Source: Methanogenium organophilum (GTDB taxonomy: Archaea; Halobacteriota; Methanomicrobia; Methanomicrobiales; Methanomicrobiaceae). Taken from it: a stretch of 64,000 nucleotides of DNA. This document shows positions 3,554-63,331 of this stretch, in pieces. The translations under genes were made by a program, and so were the position numbers. The stretch spans positions 744,001-808,000 of the forward strand of contig NZ_CP113361.1 in the NCBI RefSeq assembly GCF_026684035.1, in the 5' to 3' direction. The notes beneath the pieces are model-generated. The model had not been told where the DNA came from. It searched no databases and worked only from the letters and a program-made list of their open reading frames with translations. The number at the start of each line of letters is the position of its first letter. Within the stretch, counting starts at the first letter, position 1.

Positions 3554-4330
3554 TCACACCTCAACGGTCCGGGTCGCGGCATGCTGAAGCCCGACTTCCA
3601 GTTCTACATCATGAGAGAAGAGCGCAAGTGTTTCGCGGGCAGTTCCAAGGGCTTTCTCCGGCGTATTGTTCTCTTCAGAGAGATGGGCGAGAACTGCTGC
3701 CGAGAGATCAGAGCAGAGTTCACTAAGGACATTTGACGCCGCCCGATTGGATAGATGACCGCGATTTTTATCTGCAATCCGGCGTTTCAGAAATACCGGA
3801 TACGGCCCGTTTTCAAGCATCACCGGACAATGATTGCTCTCAAGGACGAGACAGTCACAGCGGGAGAGATACGTCATCATTGCGGGAGTCACCATCCCGG
3901 TATCTGTGCAGACACCCACTGTCACCTCACCATCTGAGATACAGAATCCTGTCGGGTCCGCTGCGTCGTGTGAGGTGGAGAACGAAGTCACTGAGAATGT
4001 ATCGGTATAAAATGTCTCTCCCGGCGTGACCCGGCGAAGGTCAGCTGATTTCGGGGATTTCAGGGTTTCTTTCACCCCGGCAAGCGTTCCACCGGTGCCG
4101 AAGACGGACACCGGGCACTGGCGGGTAAAGACATCCACGCCCCGGATATGGTCCGAGTGCTCGTGGGTAATACAGAGCCCTTCCAAACAGGTGATGTCTC
4201 CGCCGCAGGCCGCAACAGATGACCGGATTCGGCGACTGCTGATGCCTGCATCCACAAGAAGGGCGCCACCGTTCCCTTCAATGTAGATGCTGTTTCCTTT
4301 GCTGCCGCTTGCAAGGACGGTAACCTTCAT
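3554..4330 (-). CDS. Metallo-beta-lactamase-fold hydrolase (YycJ/WalJ-like)
   Basis: 258 residues. The zinc-binding signature THEHSDH is at about residue 60. The opening [20 protein letters not shown] is typical of the YycJ/WalJ/PqqB-like branch of MBL hydrolases. Bacterial relatives are thought to be nucleases or phosphodiesterases with a role in DNA replication or repair. The substrate here is unknown, though the downstream DNA ligase gene is consistent with a DNA role. The ATG at 4330 is preferred over a TTG two codons upstream. The promoter should lie in the roughly 150-base divergent gap shared with the ATPase gene starting at 4483. Confidence 0.85.
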
Positions 4331-4482
4331 TGCCAATATGTTTGGCTCACATGATGGTAAAAGTCACCTCTCTGCTAGTATTACCATCCCGCATGCACCC
4401 CATGCATGCCGAAACGGTACCACAGATATCTTTTTTCTCTGTTTGGTCAATTATTGAAAATAACTGGAAACCGAGGCACAGA

Positions 4483-5877
4483 ATGACGGAGACATGGAAC
4501 GCTGCCCTGAAAGCTATCATACCAACACTCACCGGGTGCAGGGCAGGCCCCGATATGAAACACATCACGTACGGCGCAAATGCCTACTGTGTCCGTTCCC
4601 ATAGCCGCGATGAACTGCGATTTTGTCTCCCGCTTCTCGTCACGGAGAGTGTATCAAAAACAGCCTGCCCCGACAGTCGCGGACAGGACGGGGCAGTCTG
4701 GGCAGCGCTGGAGCATATCAAAACACAGGTTCCCCGCATCCCGGCACTCGCACCGGTGGGCGGCAGGGGAACCCGTCATCCCCGGCACTGCATTGCCCAC
4801 ACCGAACCCTGCACCCTCATCTGCACACCGGACGGCATGGGGGAGGCGCTCTGGAAACCGGATAGAAACAATTTTTTGGACGCGTTCGGTCTGCATATCC
4901 TGGTGCGGGGAGCACTCCCGTACCCGGGGCCGCCCACCGTCCCGGCACAGCATGACGTGCGTGAGAAACTCCGGGACCTCTGCGACGCCATCGGTGATGC
5001 CGAAGCGTCAGTTTCCCCCCGTCAGGTGGAAACAGCAGTCCTCACGGCCATTGACCAGAAATCCCTGCGCCAGAGACTGCCTGAGGAGGGCATCATCACG
5101 TTTATCGCGGATGGCAGCCTGATGGCACGAAAGGAGACGGAGGTGCGAAATCACTACCGCATCGCAGGCCCGAAAGAAGGAGTGCATATCCCCTTTTTCT
5201 GCCCGGAAACACTCACACCAGCGGAATTTGACTGCGAGGGGAGTGGGGGAAGCCTCACCGGCTTTGCCATCCGCAGGCGGGAGGCAGTTGCCATCATCGG
5301 TTCCAATGCGGAAGGAAAGACAACCATCATCCATGGCATTCTCTCAGGGGTAGACGACCATGCACCCGGTGACGGACGGGAAGGCATTGTCACCCGCCGT
5401 GGCATTGAACGGATTGCTGCCGGAGCATACGGCCTCAAAGGGGCAGACGTCAGCCTCTTTTTTAAGAGCCTTCCCCCGGGGGTAAACGGCACCCCGAAGA
5501 TGGCGTACGGTGCAGGCAGCGGATCACTGGTGATGGCCTACGAATGTGTCCGTGCCTGCGCCCGCAAGGCTCCTGCCATTCTCTTTGATGAGGATACCGC
5601 AGCTAACAATCTGCTGATCCCCTCCTCGTTTCAGACAGAGGATGTTACCCCTCTCTCAGAGGTCCTCCACCATAATCGTGAGGCGCTGGGTGAGACTGCA
5701 CTGATCTTTGCGGCAGGCTCATCGGATATGCTTGTCGCCCGGGCGGATGTAATTATCCGGCTGAAAGATCACGCGGCAGATGCCGTACCGCCACAGGAAT
5801 TCCGGGCACACCTGCAGGACCATCTCAGGGAGATGCTCGCATCGCTGAACGAAGAAAAAGGGACACCGCGGATTTAA
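4483..5877 (+). CDS. Predicted ATPase of the ABC class (COG3044 / PF09818 type)
   Basis: About 464 residues from the chosen ATG at 4483, which has GAGGC upstream; in-frame ATGs exist further 5'. The Walker A-like stretch IGSNAEGKTTIIHGI is followed by the family's PGDGREGIVT segment. A signature-like GAGSGS and a Walker B with LFDEDTAANNLLIP come next. These features define the poorly characterised COG3044 ABC ATPases, which are soluble and have no transporter partner. The gene is divergent from the MBL hydrolase and overlaps the end of the MosAB-like gene by 4 bases. The biochemical role is unknown for the family. Confidence 0.8.
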   Translation: MTETWNAALKAIIPTLTGCRAGPDMKHITYGANAYCVRSHSRDELRFCLPLLVTESVSKTACPDSRGQDGAVWAALEHIKTQVPRIPALAPVGGRGTRHPRHCIAHTEPCTLICTPDGMGEALWKPDRNNFLDAFGLHILVRGALPYPGPPTVPAQHDVREKLRDLCDAIGDAEASVSPRQVETAVLTAIDQKSLRQRLPEEGIITFIADGSLMARKETEVRNHYRIAGPKEGVHIPFFCPETLTPAEFDCEGSGGSLTGFAIRRREAVAIIGSNAEGKTTIIHGILSGVDDHAPGDGREGIVTRRGIERIAAGAYGLKGADVSLFFKSLPPGVNGTPKMAYGAGSGSLVMAYECVRACARKAPAILFDEDTAANNLLIPSSFQTEDVTPLSEVLHHNREALGETALIFAAGSSDMLVARADVIIRLKDHAADAVPPQEFRAHLQDHLREMLASLNEEKGTPRI

Positions 5878-6692
5878 TCCGCCGTGATGAGAGTGCCGGG
5901 GTTTTCCCCCTTGAGGGCACGTTCCAGAGTGCCACGCTCATGCCCGTTGATGATACGTACTTCCCGGATATTTTTGGCATTTACCAGAAGTTCGACAACC
6001 TTGCGTTCCAGGACCATATCATCCATCTTCATGTCAAGGAGTTCTTCTGCCGAGATCTCTTTTATGAGTTCTGCTTCCGGATTGATGAACGGGTTTTCGG
6101 TGAAGAGTCCGTCAACATTCTTCAGCAGGGTGCAGGACTTTGCCCCGATAACCTCGGCGGCGAGGAATGCTCCGGTGTCAGTCCTGTGCTGCGGGATGAC
6201 TGTCCCGGGCGAAGGTTCTTCGAAGTAGCTGTAGGGCGGGGTGCCGGCCATCACCGGAAGAAGGCCCATTCTCATCAGCATCGGGAGGTCCATAATTTCG
6301 TCCACTTCAACGCGGATACCACCGTCTTCAGCGAGCAGGGCCGCAACCATCTTGGTATTCTGCGTGCTCACATCCCCTGTCAGTTCAGCAAGAATCCCGG
6401 TCGGCATCCCAAGATCAATGCCGATGTCCATCACATGACGGACACGAACACCACCGCCCACCACGACAAGCATCTCATACTGTTCCTTGAGCTGACGGAT
6501 TTCATCCAGAATCGGCAACAGCACCTTTGAACCAAAGTCCACCGTTCCGTGGCCGCCGATCTTAACCACATTCAGGTTGGGTGCTATCCGCACGATACGA
6601 TCCTGGTTCTCTCCGTACTCAAGAGATCTGCGTACCAGTGTTTCTCCCTGTAATTTGTTCTTTATTTCGCGGCGTTTCTTCATGGTACTCAT
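5874..6692 (-). CDS. Molybdenum storage protein (MosA/MosB)-like amino acid kinase family protein
   Basis: 272 residues of the amino acid kinase / UMP kinase fold. It keeps the order of motifs known from Azotobacter MosA and MosB: NVVKIGGHGTVDFGSKVLLP, a Gly-rich VVGGGVRVRH, a TPPYSYFE segment, GTVIPQHRTDTGAFL, KNVDGLFTENP and EVRIINGHERGTLERAL, ending NPGTLITAD. Known family role: ATP-dependent storage of molybdate or tungstate as polyoxometalate clusters in a hollow oligomer. Only one subunit gene is present, so a homo-oligomer would be needed. A MOT1-type molybdate permease lies 1.2 kb away. A uridylate-kinase-like activity remains possible, but the C-terminal pattern favours MosAB. Confidence 0.75.
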   Translation of the reverse strand: MSTMKKRREIKNKLQGETLVRRSLEYGENQDRIVRIAPNLNVVKIGGHGTVDFGSKVLLPILDEIRQLKEQYEMLVVVGGGVRVRHVMDIGIDLGMPTGILAELTGDVSTQNTKMVAALLAEDGGIRVEVDEIMDLPMLMRMGLLPVMAGTPPYSYFEEPSPGTVIPQHRTDTGAFLAAEVIGAKSCTLLKNVDGLFTENPFINPEAELIKEISAEELLDMKMDDMVLERKVVELLVNAKNIREVRIINGHERGTLERALKGENPGTLITAD

Positions 6693-6792
6693 GTATCAGA
6701 GATTTATCTTATATGAATAAAGATTTCCTGTTCTCCCAGACCTGTTTTCATATGAGCGGTGTGCCGGATCAACTACCGCTGCCGGTTTATGA

Positions 6793-6805
6793 AAATATAT
6801 ATACC
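6793..6805 (+). promoter_or_regulatory. TATA-like element upstream of the small paralogue pair
   Basis: AAATATATATACC lies about 25-30 bases upstream of an 18-bp perfect palindrome and 70 bases upstream of the ATG at 6873. The predicted start of transcription falls inside the palindrome. Confidence 0.45.
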
Positions 6806-6822
6806 ATAGCCAACCACTAAGC

Positions 6823-6840
6823 ATATATCAGCTGATATAT
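6823..6840. promoter_or_regulatory. Perfect 18-bp palindrome, candidate operator
   Basis: ATATATCAGCTGATATAT is its own reverse complement. It sits 18 bases downstream of the TATA-like element and overlaps the expected transcription start of the two small paralogous genes. That is a usual place for repressor binding in archaea. The regulator is unknown; a metal- or oxyanion-responsive one would fit the neighbourhood, but nothing in the sequence shows it. Confidence 0.5.
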
Positions 6841-6872
6841 CAGATGTTATATCACTGCAGGATGTGAAAACA

Positions 6873-7091
6873 ATGAAAATCTATGTTCGGGCACGCACAA
6901 AAGTCGGCGAAGGCGTCCGCCAGCCGAAATTCAAGGTCGTTGCCACCACCGGTGATGCAACAGAAAAAATCAAATTCCGGGCAAAGCACCTGCGCAAATC
7001 TGAACTGGAACAGATTGCAGAGGACTGCAGTGCCACACTGGTGTACCTGGAGTCTCCCCGCGGCACCGGTGAAGGCAGCAACAAGTCATAA
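6873..7091 (+). CDS. Small conserved protein, first of a tandem pair
   Basis: 72 residues, not recognised. It begins MKIYVRARTKVGEGVRQPKF and shares about half its residues with the next gene (the motif VGEGV-QP-F-VVA-TGD, then KIK-RA-H-RK-ELE). The alternation of strand-like and helix-like stretches suggests a small alpha/beta fold. The lysine/arginine-rich first half could bind nucleic acid or an anion. The ATG at 6873 is chosen over a GTG at 6864 because GGATGTG acts as ribosome binding site. The pair lies between the MosAB-like gene and the molybdate permease gene. Confidence 0.75.
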   Translation: MKIYVRARTKVGEGVRQPKFKVVATTGDATEKIKFRAKHLRKSELEQIAEDCSATLVYLESPRGTGEGSNKS

Positions 7092-7145
7092 ATATCTTAT
7101 CACCTATTTTGAATCGTCCGTATATGCGGCGAAGAGGGGAACACG

Positions 7146-7361
7146 ATGAAAATTTATGTACGTCCACGACAAAAAGTCGGAGAAGGAGTAAAACAGCCAA
7201 TGTTCAGGGTTGTTGCAGTCACCGGAGACAGTGAAGAGAAAATTAAAGTTCGGGCCACTCATTTCCGGAAAAAAGAACTTGAGATGATTGCTTCCGACAC
7301 CGGTGCTGAGATTGTCATACTTGAACATGCGTCTGACGAATCCGGGAAAAGCCTGGACTAA
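7146..7361 (+). CDS. Small conserved protein, second of a tandem pair
   Basis: 71 residues, paralogue of the gene ending at 7091, beginning MKIYVRPRQKVGEGVKQPMF. GAGGGG provides a good ribosome binding site 7 bases before the ATG. The pair arose by tandem duplication. The C-termini differ and are both acidic/Ser-Gly rich, which suggests that only the core is constrained. No function is known to me. Confidence 0.75.
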   Translation: MKIYVRPRQKVGEGVKQPMFRVVAVTGDSEEKIKVRATHFRKKELEMIASDTGAEIVILEHASDESGKSLD

Positions 7362-7369
7362 CCACCAGC

Positions 7370-7386
7370 CTTTTTTTCTTTTCCTG
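7370..7386 (+). terminator. Poly-T tract, probable archaeal terminator
   Basis: CTTTTTTTCTTTTCC follows the second small paralogue gene by 8 bases. Archaeal RNA polymerase commonly terminates in such oligo-T tracts without a hairpin. Confidence 0.45.
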
Positions 7387-7405
7387 CCAAATACCGCATA
7401 CGTAT

Positions 7406-7789
7406 ATGGCGTCACTTGATATCCCTGCACTATTCCATGCCGCAGCCGAGATCCTTATCCGGGAAGATCACTCAGTTTCCATTGAATATTCATCCGAAGA
7501 GGTGAGGATACGGTTTCCCACGACCCGCAAACTTGCCCGCTATCTCGATGTCCCTCATTATTACGTTCTCCCGGTGTTCAGCATGATGGAGGAGAAACAT
7601 CTGGTCAGAAGAGAGGAGCGGGTCGGCATCTCTACAACCAGTGCGGGCACCATGCTCTTTCTAAAGGTCGTAGGAGAGGCAATGCCGGATGAGGCAACGG
7701 CACTCCTGGGCGAAGGAACCATCGATGCAATCACGGCAAAGATATCTTCTGCTGTGTCCCCATCAGGACTCCGGACCTCCCCTGACTAA
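7406..7789 (+). CDS. Conserved hypothetical protein with winged-helix-like segment
   Basis: 127 residues, not recognised. Residues 30-85 (IRFPTTRKLARYLDVPHYYV, then FSMMEEKHLVRREERVGIST) resemble the helix-turn-helix plus wing of small archaeal DNA-binding proteins: a recognition-like helix, then a beta-hairpin. The last 40 residues are a helical tail rich in Ala and Thr. No ribosome binding site is visible before the ATG, so it may be leaderless or translated from the upstream transcript. A regulatory role is an inference from the fold guess. Confidence 0.6.
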   Translation: MASLDIPALFHAAAEILIREDHSVSIEYSSEEVRIRFPTTRKLARYLDVPHYYVLPVFSMMEEKHLVRREERVGISTTSAGTMLFLKVVGEAMPDEATALLGEGTIDAITAKISSAVSPSGLRTSPD

Positions 7790-7876
7790 AAGGGACAAAG
7801 GAATCGCAACAGCTATCGTAAGGCAAATCTGACGGTATGCTGATTCGCACCGGAATGCGGCAGAAACGGAGATGAC

Positions 7877-9019
7877 ATGGACCTGCTGACACATCACCCA
7901 TATAACAGAGACGATCTGCCAAAACCCGCATTTACCCTGCGTGAGGCCGCAGGATCAGTTGGCGACTTCGGGACGATCCTGCCAATTGTCCTGGGTGTGG
8001 CGCTTGTATCCGATATGAATATCAGCCACATTCTCTTCTTTTTTGCCGTATGGTTTATTATTTCCGGGTTTTATTACCGTCTCCCCGTGCCCATCGAGCC
8101 GATGAAGGCCATCGGTGCTGTTGTTATTGCAGGCTCACTCACGCATGACATCATCGCTGCATCCGGCATTATTGTCGGTATCTTCTTTCTTCTGGCAGGC
8201 CTTATGCGGTGGATGGAGGCACTGAAAAAGTATATCCCCCAGAATGTCATCCGGGGTGTGCAGGCAGCCCTTGCGCTCCTGCTTTTAAAATCAGCCCTCG
8301 GATTTGCTACGGGCGATATCATTCCGTTTACTGTGGCGACACTGGTCATTGCGCTCTTCTGGGTCGGGGCGAAGTACACCCGGATACCCGACATCTCCGC
8401 GCTCATTGTGGTCTTCGGCGGAGTGGGTGCAGGGATTCTCATCTCCGGCATGCCGGAATTTATTCTGCCTGCTCTCCCCACCGTATTTTTACCGTCACCG
8501 GAGGTGTTCTTCCCGGCATTCACCGACCTTGTCCTCCCGCAGATCCCGCTCACGATCACAAATGCCATCCTTGCAACCTCTCTTCTGACACTGGACCTCT
8601 TCCGGCATGAAATAAAACCGGACCGTCTCTCTGCCACTATCGGTGTAATGAATCTGGTCTCTGTTCCCTTCGGCGGATTTCCGATGTGCCACGGGGCAGG
8701 AGGGATGGCAGGACAGTACCGCTTTGGTGCACGCACCGGCGGGGCAAACATCATTGCAGGCATTATCCTGCTTGCATTTGCCTTTCTTTTCGCCTCAGCA
8801 GGCGTGCTCTCCATAATTCCCACCGGCATATTCGGCGCACTCCTCCTCTTTGTGGCGCTCGAACTGGGAATTCATGCAACGAAAACCGACTCCGCGGTAG
8901 TGACCGGTGTCATAGCTGTGGTCTCCATTGTAGGGAACATCACTATCGCATTCATTATCGGCATGATACTTGCATGGGGACGAATCTGGTACAGGAAACG
9001 CACCGGACAGGATCCATAA
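7877..9019 (+). CDS. MOT1-family molybdate/sulfate-type permease
   Basis: 380 residues with about 10-11 hydrophobic segments. The two hallmark motifs of MOT1 (MFS_MOT1/PF16983) are present: SVGDFGTILP at about residues 27-36, and GGFPMCHGAGGMAGQYRFGA at about 262-281. Plant and algal members are high-affinity molybdate carriers. The prokaryotic ones are annotated as putative sulfate or molybdate permeases, so the substrate is inferred. A GGAG ribosome binding site precedes the ATG. The MosAB-like storage protein gene 1.2 kb away on the other strand strengthens the molybdate/tungstate reading. Methanogens need these metals for formylmethanofuran dehydrogenase. Confidence 0.85.
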   Translation: MDLLTHHPYNRDDLPKPAFTLREAAGSVGDFGTILPIVLGVALVSDMNISHILFFFAVWFIISGFYYRLPVPIEPMKAIGAVVIAGSLTHDIIAASGIIVGIFFLLAGLMRWMEALKKYIPQNVIRGVQAALALLLLKSALGFATGDIIPFTVATLVIALFWVGAKYTRIPDISALIVVFGGVGAGILISGMPEFILPALPTVFLPSPEVFFPAFTDLVLPQIPLTITNAILATSLLTLDLFRHEIKPDRLSATIGVMNLVSVPFGGFPMCHGAGGMAGQYRFGARTGGANIIAGIILLAFAFLFASAGVLSIIPTGIFGALLLFVALELGIHATKTDSAVVTGVIAVVSIVGNITIAFIIGMILAWGRIWYRKRTGQDP

Positions 9020-61176: not shown

Positions 61177-62295
61177 TCAGCAGTCGTTTTTCCCTGCGTT
61201 TATGACAGACTCAATGAGCCAGAGGACACCCTCTGTCCCAATGAGCGGACGGTGACAGAGCATCGAATGTTTGCGTATGGGAATCGTTGTCTGCACTAAG
61301 GGCACATCTGGTGCGAGGGTCTTTTCATACCGTGACCCGATGATCAGATCAGGCTCGCCATCTGCAATCATCTGTTTTACCGTCCCCAGGTCGGGTGCCC
61401 AGGTACACACAGAGGCCTCAGGAGGCCGGTTGCGGGCGCCTGCGCTGCATATTTCAGCTTCCAGAAAGGTTGTGAGCAGGTCTGCTGCCATATCCATGTA
61501 ACCGGCAATCCCAAAGAGGGCCACCCGTGGTGGATCGTTGACGCGGAGATACCGGTCACATGCCTTGATCACCAGCTCTTCAGTCTCTTCGCAGATATCC
61601 ATGACAGAAGCACAGTCCGCGTCCGGGAAGGTCTCCTGAAGGGCAGAAAACGCTGACTCAATGGCATCCAGTCCGCACAGTGACCCAACAGACCTCCCGA
61701 TACCGGATGCCACATCCGGAAGGGCAGTCACCGTCACCATCGCCGGATTCAGAGCCGAGGAGAGCGTATCATCACAGTATTTCGCCGCAACCGGGATGCC
61801 TGCAGCGGCAAGCAGGCGTTCTGCTTCCATCCGGTTACCGGCGGCGAAGGGATCGGTTGAGATGAGCCCGTCAATATTCACCCCGTCACGCGCCGGGTCG
61901 GTCTCTGTGGGGAAAGCGGCGAGGGATAGCCGGTACCCGTCCATCATATCCCCACAATAGCCAGGTGCATCGATAATCAGTGCGTCTGATCCGGCACAGT
62001 ATGGCACAAGATCCTCACCAATGGTTGCCGGCACACAGGAATTGATAACAACAATCCTCTCACTGATGGGCAGGAGCGCTTCTGCCACCTCCTGCAGACG
62101 GTCCCCGGTGCCAAAGATCACCTCGTCTTCAACGAGATAGGTACAGTTCACGGGGTCAGGAATGATGGAATCAGCATAGAAATAGCAGCCTGACGCGCCG
62201 TGGATAATAACTCCTGCCCCCTCCAGACCTGCCATTGCTGCGGCGGCACCGACCATCGCACAGGGCCAGAGTGGATTGGTGCATAGCTTAGCCAT
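61177..62295 (-). CDS. Nitrogenase component-1-like protein, second subunit (NifK-like)
   Basis: 372 residues from an ATG overlapping the upstream gene by 8 bases; a longer frame upstream is an antisense artefact. It keeps the three cysteines at P-cluster positions: C12 (NPLWPCAMVG), C37 (IHGASGC) and C87 (INSCVPATIGED). The nitrogenase pattern DEVIFGTGDRLQEVAEALL is also present. It is far shorter than NifK (about 520). No obvious cofactor ligand His/Cys pair is seen. Together with its 5' neighbour it would form a heteromeric reductase fed by the NifH-like protein. Substrate unknown. Confidence 0.75.
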   Translation of the reverse strand: MAKLCTNPLWPCAMVGAAAAMAGLEGAGVIIHGASGCYFYADSIIPDPVNCTYLVEDEVIFGTGDRLQEVAEALLPISERIVVINSCVPATIGEDLVPYCAGSDALIIDAPGYCGDMMDGYRLSLAAFPTETDPARDGVNIDGLISTDPFAAGNRMEAERLLAAAGIPVAAKYCDDTLSSALNPAMVTVTALPDVASGIGRSVGSLCGLDAIESAFSALQETFPDADCASVMDICEETEELVIKACDRYLRVNDPPRVALFGIAGYMDMAADLLTTFLEAEICSAGARNRPPEASVCTWAPDLGTVKQMIADGEPDLIIGSRYEKTLAPDVPLVQTTIPIRKHSMLCHRPLIGTEGVLWLIESVINAGKNDC

Positions 62296-63331
62296 TGATA
62301 AACCTCCGCCACTGCCGGAGCATCCGCCGCAGCCCAAGTGTGCCCACCGGCATGCAGAAGGGTATAGGAATAACAGTGCCCTCCGGTGCAACCTTGACAC
62401 CAACGGCATCTGCAACCTCAGTAAACATTTCCATCCCCGCGGACTGGAAGCCAAATGAGTCAAAGGTCACATACGCACCGGATAAATCAGAAAATTCATC
62501 GGTGAGTGCCGCCTGCTGCTCCTCTTCTGCACGAACAGCGTCTGTGAAGTCCCTTCCGGTGAGACGGCCGGTCTCCCGGATGAACGCAAGTGTTGCAGAG
62601 AGACCGACCGGGAACTCCGGAATAGAGGGGATACCGGTGCAGGCATCGAAATGCCGTCCCAGGATACCGTTCGTGTCCTCCCGAAAGAGGTTCAGACCCG
62701 CATCCCCGAACCGCCCGATATTCTCTACGGTGATATCACGCACATACCGTATATTCACGTCCAGGTCCAGCATACCGAGTATTCGGGATACCTCCTGAAA
62801 ATTGTCGTCCACCTCAAACTCCAGATTCTTTTCACCGATAATATTCACTTTATCCGGGTCGCGTTTACCGGGCCGGATGAATGACGAGAGGGCGGTGAGC
62901 GTACTGGTATACCCATCGTTGAAAGTGCCTCCGAGAAAGCCGGAGCTTGGCACATAAATGACCGGGCAGTCCCATTGCCGACTGCAGATGCCTGCCACAT
63001 CGTCCCCGATTGTCTCGGAGACACAGGTGCTTGCGACCACGACTGCAGCCGGGTCATCCGCACATACTGCCGTCAGGGCATCATGGAGGGCGTCCTCTCC
63101 TCCGAAGATTACTTCATCCTCACCAAGACCGCTGGAGACAATCTCCGGGATGCGGAACACATCATGCTCTGCAAGAGTGGTGTACAAAAGGGAGGTATTG
63201 ATATGAGTACATCCGTCCGGGCCATGGATCAGGGTCACGGCATCGGTGAGAAAAGCACTCACTGAGAGGACACCCATGACCGTGCATCCTTCATAGCGTG
63301 ATGTACGACCGTGCAAGTTCTTCGAGTTCAT
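62288..63331 (-). CDS. Nitrogenase component-1-like protein, first subunit (NifD-like)
   Basis: 347 residues. The ATG at 63331 overlaps the H-like gene by 41 bases. It is preferred because the first cluster cysteine, C16 in [10 protein letters not shown], comes before the next ATG (63277). The other cysteines are C41 (IHGPDGC) and C102 ([11 protein letters not shown]). [20 protein letters not shown] matches NifD/E. The C-terminal half ([24 protein letters not shown]) resembles the third Rossmann domain. Only distantly similar to its downstream partner, so the pair is a true hetero-pair and not a recent duplication. Confidence 0.78.

Follow-up and report, generated by a model that had tools for sequence, protein, structure and literature searches.

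Five genes and a putative operator make up the locus (Table 1), which lies in a 64,000-nucleotide (64 kb) stretch of the Methanogenium organophilum genome, the whole of which is called the window here. Re-reading of the gene ends left all five genes where a preliminary description, made from the letters of the DNA alone, had placed them; the operator had been overlooked in it. The gene mos stands head-to-head with an operon that begins with two small paralogous proteins. Rfam and tRNA scans of the 64 kb window gave no match.

Table 1. Features of the mos locus, with positions in the window
Feature	Position	Strand	Basis
Mos, archaeal MosA/MosB-like protein, 272 aa	5874-6692	-	phmmer, nucleotide-site columns, genome search
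Predicted role of Mos: subunit of an ATP-dependent molybdate/tungstate storage cage	5874-6692	-	homology
Intergenic region separating the divergent mos gene and small-protein operon	6693-6863	.	head-to-head spacing
Putative operator: 12-bp repeats in tandem (rTAwAyCArYTG) with overlapping palindromes	6817-6858	.	profile matches
Small partner protein, copy A, 75 aa	6864-7091	+	64% identity to copy B
Small partner protein, copy B, 71 aa	7146-7361	+	alignment, AlphaFold model
Winged-helix-like (HTH) protein, 127 aa, predicted regulator binding the 12-bp repeats	7406-7789	+	co-occurrence, weak matches
MOT1-type molybdate permease, 380 aa	7877-9019	+	PF16983 match

Judged by its sequence, Mos is a relative of MosA and MosB, the subunits of the Azotobacter vinelandii storage protein MoSto, and it is a separate archaeal type because the nucleotide site is kept but the cluster-binding histidine patch of MosA is missing. 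A phmmer comparison with the PDB returned MosB (2.7e-50) and MosA (8.1e-48) as the best solved relatives, as expected from the preliminary description of a MosAB-like gene, and the gap in E-value between them and the best other match, a UMP kinase (3.2e-11), exceeds 36 orders of magnitude. Mos shares with the UMP kinase PyrH the superfamily fold (PF00696, the amino-acid-kinase family) and the nucleotide site; however, it reaches only 58.6 bits against the archaeal PyrH model (TIGR02076, pyrH_arch), far below the cut-off of 158.05, and 55.3 bits in a genome search with that model, in which the true PyrH, encoded elsewhere in the genome, scores 257.5 bits. The UMP kinase reading, named beforehand as the outcome that would speak against a storage protein, is therefore rejected. 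Archaeal Mos forms its own clade apart from bacterial MosA/MosB with 100/99 support, in a tree whose MosA and MosB labels, assigned with a rough motif, are in part incorrect, the rows having later been re-sorted by identity.

Residues were compared in 20 MosA, 20 MosB and 40 archaeal rows sorted by identity; the 40 leave out three archaeal sequences shorter or longer than 250-320 aa, which also lack the MosA patch. The columns of MosA K45 (K42 in MosB), G47, G48, D52, R169 and D171, which we take to line the ATP site of the fold, are identical in 40/40 archaeal rows including that of the window, as is the column of MosB K189; these nucleotide-site residues are common to Mos and MoSto, and the solved chain 6ris_B differs at the K42/K45 lysine. 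The cluster ligands tell a different story. Glu129 and His156 of MosA are named as covalent ligands of an octamolybdate cluster in an excerpt of PMC4504029. Bacterial MosA rows keep this pair (20/20 and 19/20), whereas His156 is kept in none of the 40 archaeal rows and Glu129 in three, Mos of the window having E at 129 and S at 156 (MosA numbering). His130, His140, His157 and His158 are likewise absent from all 40 rows, and Glu129 is absent from 37. Two nearby columns carry His in 27/40 archaeal rows each; Mos of the window has neither. Among the positions conserved only in archaeal Mos are R7, E17, R21, H48, D89 and H251. Since Glu129 and His156 are not kept, MosA-type polyoxomolybdate chemistry cannot be assumed for archaeal Mos, and in the site comparison proposed in the preliminary description Mos agrees with MosA/MosB at the nucleotide site and differs from MosA at the cluster ligands.

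Of the 232 genomes sampled from the window's order, 152 (about two thirds) have a Mos relative, as do 67 genomes of a 392-genome sample of the phylum; at least 490 stretches with Mos relatives were confirmed when bacterial and archaeal genomes were scanned. According to a 2019 study of Azotobacter MoSto, databases contained no known homologs of it (PMC6448029). The earlier assumption that such proteins belong to few organisms, mainly nitrogen fixers, does not fit these counts or the nifD comparison given below. There is a single mos copy in the window genome, which has no adjacent pair of homologous subunit genes. More than one Mos match was obtained in 11 of the 152 Mos genomes (G104, G085-G091, G093, G125 and G178), some of the matches being fragments. 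The single subunit noted in the preliminary description thus applies here and to most Mos genomes, in contrast to the mosB-mosA pair of MoSto and to the bacterial mos loci, 79/80 of which have two subunit genes.

The grouping of mos with the small-protein gene is far beyond chance. In tallies that count genomes without regard to kinship, Mos and the small protein occur together in 151 of the 232 order genomes, Mos alone in 1, the small protein alone in 4 and neither in 76 (phi 0.952); the HTH family occurs in 149 (phi with Mos 0.859), and relatives of the window's permease occur in 157, together with Mos in 126, with Mos only in 26, the permease only in 31 and neither in 49 (phi 0.449). In the phylum sample the small protein is found in 67/67 Mos genomes and without Mos in 3, and the two genes are found paired across the order and in four other families of the phylum. 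The best reading is that the ~70-aa small protein, not the permease, is the strongest and obligate partner of Mos. The co-conservation with the permease on which the preliminary description had set weight is middling, neither absent nor tight, and the permease is rejected as an obligate partner.

Gene order, whose conservation had been suggested as a check, was compared in 40 neighbourhoods, the window and 39 chosen by us across genera; several of the stretches (L038-L041, L064) were placed so as to contain both mos and the small-protein gene. These genes are head-to-head with a spacing of at most 250 bp in 32 of the 40. The pair holds together in two orientations: the arrangement is divergent in most loci, and in L181, L185, L187 and L188 mos converges on the small-hth genes. 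Three loci of family f5 (L046, L047 and L070) carry the whole pair twice, with a head-to-head spacing of 66-76 bp calculated from coordinates; the His pattern does not split between the duplicated pairs in L047. Neither the small protein nor the HTH protein that accompanies archaeal Mos was found at any of 80 bacterial mos loci.

The small proteins gave no family match in Pfam or NCBIfam at E up to 1. They are similar in length to the Tub/Mop TOBE-domain proteins, which an excerpt of PMC11980592 describes as small proteins storing tungstate or molybdate, but no TOBE domain was detected in either database among 17 members of the family at E up to 1. The protein is basic and conserved, and K2, R6, R8, K10, H39, R41 and K42 of copy B are invariant in the alignment. 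In an AlphaFold model of copy B (pLDDT 73.7), four strands accompany a main helix. The profile found no convincing fold match in the PDB (best E 0.17), and the best results for the model were E 0.19 in Foldseek and Z 3.8 in VIA-align; because the model is of middling confidence, this lack of a match is not proof of a new fold. A scan of viral contigs for relatives returned none.

For the HTH protein, only weak profile matches were obtained in the PDB (2x4h, 0.0024; DtxR 7b25, 1.1), a GntR match (4.9e-4) was seen in one relative and none for the window member, and no recognised oxyanion-binding or sensor domain was found with Pfam, NCBIfam or the relatives. An AlphaFold model from the single sequence (pLDDT 49) was not used. 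The operator profile has four overlapping matches in the spacer (best 34.3 bits), the only ones of at least 13 bits in the window, with 0.45 expected in mononucleotide shuffles; shuffles of this kind also served as motif-discovery controls, for which the search was given fewer rounds and fewer starts than it had on the real sequences. At 15 bits the operator lies near mos/small in 36/36 neighbourhoods with an HTH gene in the genome and in 0/4 without one, kinship between genomes again being disregarded. For loci outside the order, which did not enter the profile, the figures are 6/6 with HTH and 0/3 without at a laxer 13 bits, and 5/6 with HTH at 15 bits. Operators of at least 15 bits away from mos/small were seen in 9/40 neighbourhoods, all of them no more than 170 bp from the start of a TupA/TupB-like gene; these genes, scanned singly, score below model cut-offs. 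The co-occurrence of HTH gene and operator points to the HTH protein as a likely regulator with its own repeated operator, to which it would bind. Some findings weigh against the module proposed below: in the window genome the operator occurs only in the mos/small spacer, the one place where a 19-bp core matches with up to two mismatches; at two mismatches this core also occurs in Mos-less genomes (8 matches in G118, 11 in G128) and has no match in G046 and G056, which have a profile-detected operator.

The permease matches PF16983 (Molybdate transporter, MOT1) strongly (1.2e-55, 187.1 bits against a cut-off of 30, in two matched stretches), which bears out its earlier assignment and makes molybdate its predicted substrate; it had no match in the PDB. 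MOT1 counts in PMC6147048 list eukaryotes only, in contrast to the relatives found here in an archaeal order. MOT1 is present in 32/40 neighbourhoods, and ABC molybdate/tungstate binding-protein genes or MOT1 in 37/40. Among 44 neighbouring binding proteins the sole NCBIfam models matched were TupA (21), ModA (19) and WtpA (11, overlapping). TupABC, WtpABC or ModABC genes are neighbours of mos in many relatives, whereas none was found beside it in the window. The molybdenum/tungsten theme first proposed for the locus is supported by these transporter genes, and handling of molybdate or tungstate is a link shared with MoSto.

We propose, with a probability of roughly 0.7, that the locus is a regulated module for the uptake and predicted storage of molybdate/tungstate, in which Mos has a new obligate partner. 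The proposal is based on homology, the nucleotide site, the linkage of Mos to the small protein and of the operator to the HTH protein, and the transporter neighbourhood. The permease would import the oxyanion, a step that TupABC-, ModABC- or WtpABC-like transporters may also perform in relatives, and Mos, as the only type of subunit, would assemble into a ring or cage and trap it using ATP. The small protein may be an accessory dedicated to the cage, acting as a gate, as a subunit that nucleates the cluster or in delivery. The winged-helix protein would bind the tandem 12-bp repeats in the divergent promoter and set, in one direction or the other, the expression of mos, the small protein, itself and the permease, and in relatives of a Tup-type transporter. 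Methanogens depend on molybdenum and tungsten enzymes, and the stored metal would most likely serve those of methanogenesis and formate use, not nitrogenase. Only tentatively do we entertain a more specific version, in which the archaeal cage consists of one Mos subunit and the small protein, whose invariant H-x-R-K and basic strands would replace the MosA histidine patch, the cage would hold mainly tungsten (or both metals) for enzymes of methanogenesis, and a new regulator family would read the 12-bp repeat operator.

Membership in a kinase family, an intact nucleotide site and the missing metal-ligand patch would also suit a small-molecule kinase, for example of a nucleotide or phosphate ester, that stores no metal and has its transporter neighbours by coincidence. 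We regard this as improbable given the margin by which MosA/MosB outscore every other match, the molybdenum/tungstate transporter genes in nearly all neighbourhoods, and the operator common to mos/small and TupA/TupB-like genes. Somewhat less improbable, though still doubtful, is the idea that the small protein senses the metal or co-regulates the operon and is not a partner of the Mos cage; in many loci its gene lies immediately beside that of the HTH protein and points the same way, and a basic, conserved protein stands there beside an HTH protein without a recognised sensor domain. Yet the small protein tracks Mos more closely than the HTH protein does, and it still accompanies Mos at loci that have lost both the HTH gene and the operator, namely L039, L048 and L049 within the order and L182 and L183 outside it (HTH sought in a 14 kb stretch). 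Because it persists in this way, a role of the small protein in binding the operator is disfavoured.

Storage mainly for nitrogenase, as in Azotobacter, appears very improbable. Nitrogenase-like genes (PF00148, 61195-63286) do lie in the same window, as pointed out in the preliminary description, but the main nif set is elsewhere, with strong nifD and PF00148 matches at 1034-1040 kb of the genome, ~226 kb past the window end. Mos is present in 23/42 nifD genomes, being missing from 19, compared with 129/190 genomes of the order without a nifD match (phi -0.106); when only nifD above the curated cut-off is counted, it is present in 17/35, missing from 18, compared with 135/197 others. As there is no positive association between Mos and nifD, nitrogenase is disfavoured as the main client of the proposed module.

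A literature search that covered mostly non-subscription sources found no published account of archaeal Mos or of molybdenum/tungsten stockpiling by a Mos-type cage in methanogens. The locus suggests a widespread archaeal way of stockpiling scarce molybdenum or tungsten, with a Mos relative in about two thirds of the sampled genomes of the order that is linked to a partner protein not described before, together with a likely regulator and an operator. The natural absence of the MosA ligand patch from these proteins would reveal what is truly required of a storage cage.

The genome of Methanogenium organophilum is a single archaeal contig of 2.65 Mb, and the window taken from it (positions 744001-808000) holds the MosAB-like gene (mos, encoding Mos) and the MOT1-type permease gene that the preliminary description had placed on either side of two small proteins and a winged-helix-like protein (HTH, a predicted regulator); all were located at the coordinates read. 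A gene for a PF09818 'ABC-class' P-loop ATPase (window 4330-5877, plus strand) shares four bases at its 3' end with the 3' end of mos, and this ATPase family is also present in four other mos neighbourhoods.

Genes of the mos locus, in window positions
Feature	Position	Strand	Basis
Mos, amino-acid-kinase fold, 272 aa	5874-6692	-	gene reading and family match
Small protein, first paralogue	6864-7091	+	gene reading
Small protein, second paralogue	7146-7361	+	gene reading
Winged-helix-like protein (HTH)	7406-7789	+	gene reading
MOT1-type permease	7877-9019	+	gene reading and family match

Among solved structures (PDB sequence search), Mos matches MosB (2.7e-50) and MosA (8.1e-48) far better than the top UMP kinase (3.2e-11), in agreement with the MosAB-like assignment made earlier. 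The possibility that it is instead a pyrH UMP kinase, raised together with that assignment, is ruled out by these matches, by its score with the archaeal PyrH model (58.6 bits, the cut-off being 158), and by a genuine PyrH (257.5 bits) encoded elsewhere in the same genome. A tree built from 80 Mos rows (40 archaeal) and this PyrH separates the archaeal rows from the bacterial ones at a branch with 100/99 support. Judged from its sequence, archaeal Mos is a relative of the bacterial MosA/MosB storage protein (MoSto) and not a UMP kinase.

Alignment of 20 bacterial MosA, 20 MosB and 40 archaeal rows places the same residue in all 80 at the columns of MosA K45, G47, G48, D52, R83, R85, H86, R169, D171 and G173; the MosB K189 column holds Lys in 40/40 archaeal and 20/20 MosB rows and Glu in 20/20 MosA. 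The MosA patch E129, H130, H140, H156, H157 and H158 is present in 19-20 of the 20 bacterial MosA, and in the 40 archaeal rows these residues occur 3, 0, 0, 0, 0 and 0 times, respectively. Glu129 and His156 of MosA are described as covalent octamolybdate ligands in excerpts of PMC4504029. His occupies the E129 column in 27/40 archaeal rows and the S150 column likewise in 27/40; the window Mos has Glu and Ala there. Two mos genes are found at 79 of 80 bacterial loci. The archaeal protein is a member of the Mos sequence family. Unlike bacterial MoSto, it lacks the MosA cluster ligands and the two-gene make-up, and since it departs in both features we file it, by sequence, as a distinct type, a variant within that family. 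In family f5, the two copies of the mos duplicates L046 and L070 differ at the E129 column, one having the archaeal His and the other Ala or Ser, a pattern that hints at a separate, later division into two subunit types; both copies of the f5 duplicate L047 have Lys.

Mos occurs in 152 of the 232 genomes sampled from the order (E up to 1e-20) and in 67 of 392 genomes of a phylum sample (1e-50), nine of these outside the order, and a MosB-led alignment over bacterial and archaeal genome contigs confirmed at least 490 stretches; the order and wider-scan counts do not support the earlier statement that such proteins are known from few organisms, mainly nitrogen fixers. The best 80 of these stretches (L072-L151) are all proteobacterial by title, with MosB identities of 84-100%, and come from Azotobacter, Bradyrhizobium, Azospirillum and methanotrophs, also from Nitrobacter and Candidatus Nitrotoga; the bacterial distribution of MoSto thus reaches well beyond Azotobacter. 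The archaeal Mos module is real and widespread. In G189 (C1:954000-954344, minus strand) the Mos match is short with an internal stop and the small gene is retained, possibly a decaying copy. Four genomes (L035, L036, L037, L065) share a four-gene block near Mos, whose 446-aa member in L035 is methyl-coenzyme M reductase beta. A ~232-aa protein (cluster c11; L042, L044, L045, L048 and others) occurs in 11/40 neighbourhoods, sometimes directly beside mos; its member in L044 gives a sub-threshold TiaS match alone.

The small protein is found in 155/232 order genomes: 151 have both genes, one has Mos alone (G216), four the small protein alone (G003, G069, G198, G212; completeness 62-84%) and 76 neither (co-occurrence coefficient phi 0.952). 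In the phylum sample it accompanies Mos in 67/67 genomes and occurs without it in three (G250, G259, G273; 70-85% complete), and in the order each of the 11 genomes that show several Mos matches also shows two or more for the small protein. Genera g1, g3, g4, g7, g10 and g16 each include genomes with both genes and genomes with neither, a pattern suggestive of repeated joint gain or loss of the pair. Among 40 neighbourhoods (that of the window and 39 others), 32 have the two genes head-to-head, at most 250 bp apart; of the other eight, one has a same-strand pair 37 bp apart, one a distance of 1.0 kb, five distances of 3.7-14.4 kb and one no small gene. Outside the order, mos converges on small-hth in L181, L185, L187 and L188. 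The sole Mos without its partner, in G216, sits at the tail of an open frame of ~800 aa (L066:4988-7387, minus strand). The small protein is a new family and an obligate partner of Mos. The 80 bacterial loci (flanks up to 8 kb, many shorter) gave no match below E 1e-5 to it or to the HTH, and a single chance-level small-protein match there had E 0.018. Searches of Pfam and NCBIfam returned no family match, single members giving weak, unrelated ones, and its profile matched nothing in the PDB (best E 0.17). Seventeen members share invariant K2, I3, R6, R8, K10, P18, A24, H39, R41, K42, E44, E46 and L59; the AlphaFold prediction built on both window copies (pLDDT 73.7) shows strands at 2-9, 19-26, 39-41 and 55-58 and a helix at 42-52, with no convincing match among known folds. 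The small protein may serve a predicted Mos cage by gating it, by nucleating the cluster or by delivery.

A 24-bp profile is common to 35 mos/small spacers and consists of a pair of 12-bp repeats, GTAwAyCArYTG rTATAwCArnTG; it totals 872 bits, vs 356-377 for five shuffled sets put through a less exhaustive search. Within the 64-kb window every match of at least 13 bits falls in 6817-6858, just 5' of the small-protein operon (0.45 expected in a shuffled window). A 19-bp core gave at least 13 exact matches in 51 genomes, those listed all in mos/small spacers; with two mismatches it hits many other sites, at reversed-control level in several genomes and including 8 in G118 and 11 in G128, which lack Mos, and it misses G046 and G056, though the profile locates their operators. 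The HTH family is present in 149/232 order genomes. An operator of at least 15 bits lies within 300 bp of a mos or small start in 36/36 neighbourhoods whose genome has the HTH and in 0/4 of those without it (L039, L048, L049, L066; Fisher p 1.1e-5, kinship uncorrected); two of these negatives (L039, L066) and six positives (L038, L040, L041, L042, L064, L067) were outside the profile training set. In L052 and L055, both counted among the 36, the HTH gene is elsewhere in the genome, the copy of G158 (genome of L055) having a stop inside its match. Ten further stretches were examined outside the order: six with the HTH have a site of at least 13 bits upstream of the small gene (one just 13.7 bits), and three without it in the stretch have none near that gene, with weak distant sites or none. 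The tenth, L190 (G250), has a small gene and a split HTH gene, and neither an operator nor Mos occurs in that stretch. Because operator presence tracks HTH presence, the HTH probably recognises the repeats, and the two likely form a new regulator/operator pair. Operators of at least 15 bits away from mos/small occur in 9/40 neighbourhoods, in every case no more than 170 bp from where a TupA- or TupB-like gene begins. All 12 of these genes hit the TupA or TupB model, under its cut-off; in L054 and L059 a hisD gene begins even nearer to the operator.

An oxyanion ABC binding-protein gene is present in 31/40 stretches of 10-20 kb, MOT1 in 32/40 and at least one of the two in 37/40. Forty-four binding proteins (two ORFs above 450 aa excluded) gave 21 TupA, 19 ModA and 11 WtpA matches, which overlap; some proteins may match none, and no other NCBIfam family was matched at E up to 1e-5. 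A 647-aa ORF (L061:1280-3220, plus strand) joins a TupA-like and a WtpA-like half, two oxyanion-binding proteins in one frame, and a 639-aa ORF in L051 falls in the same cluster. The co-conservation of Mos and permease proposed earlier does exist but is only moderate (phi 0.449 over 232 order genomes).

Nitrogenase as the shared client of Mos is countered by the distribution of nifD, found in 42/232 order genomes (E up to 1e-100): Mos is present in 23/42 of these vs 129/190 others (phi -0.106), and at the curated nifD cut-off in 17/35 vs 135/197 (a negative link at Fisher p 0.033, with no correction for kinship). With no positive association, nitrogenase is not the common denominator. Of the nitrogenase-like genes mentioned in the preliminary description, two PF00148 genes do lie in the window (61195-63286, minus strand), but the strong nifD and PF00148 matches are beyond it, at 1034-1040 kb of the genome. 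Natural clients of the module would be the enzymes of methanogenesis and formate metabolism that use Mo or W; the module most likely functions as MoSto does, with supply and control added.
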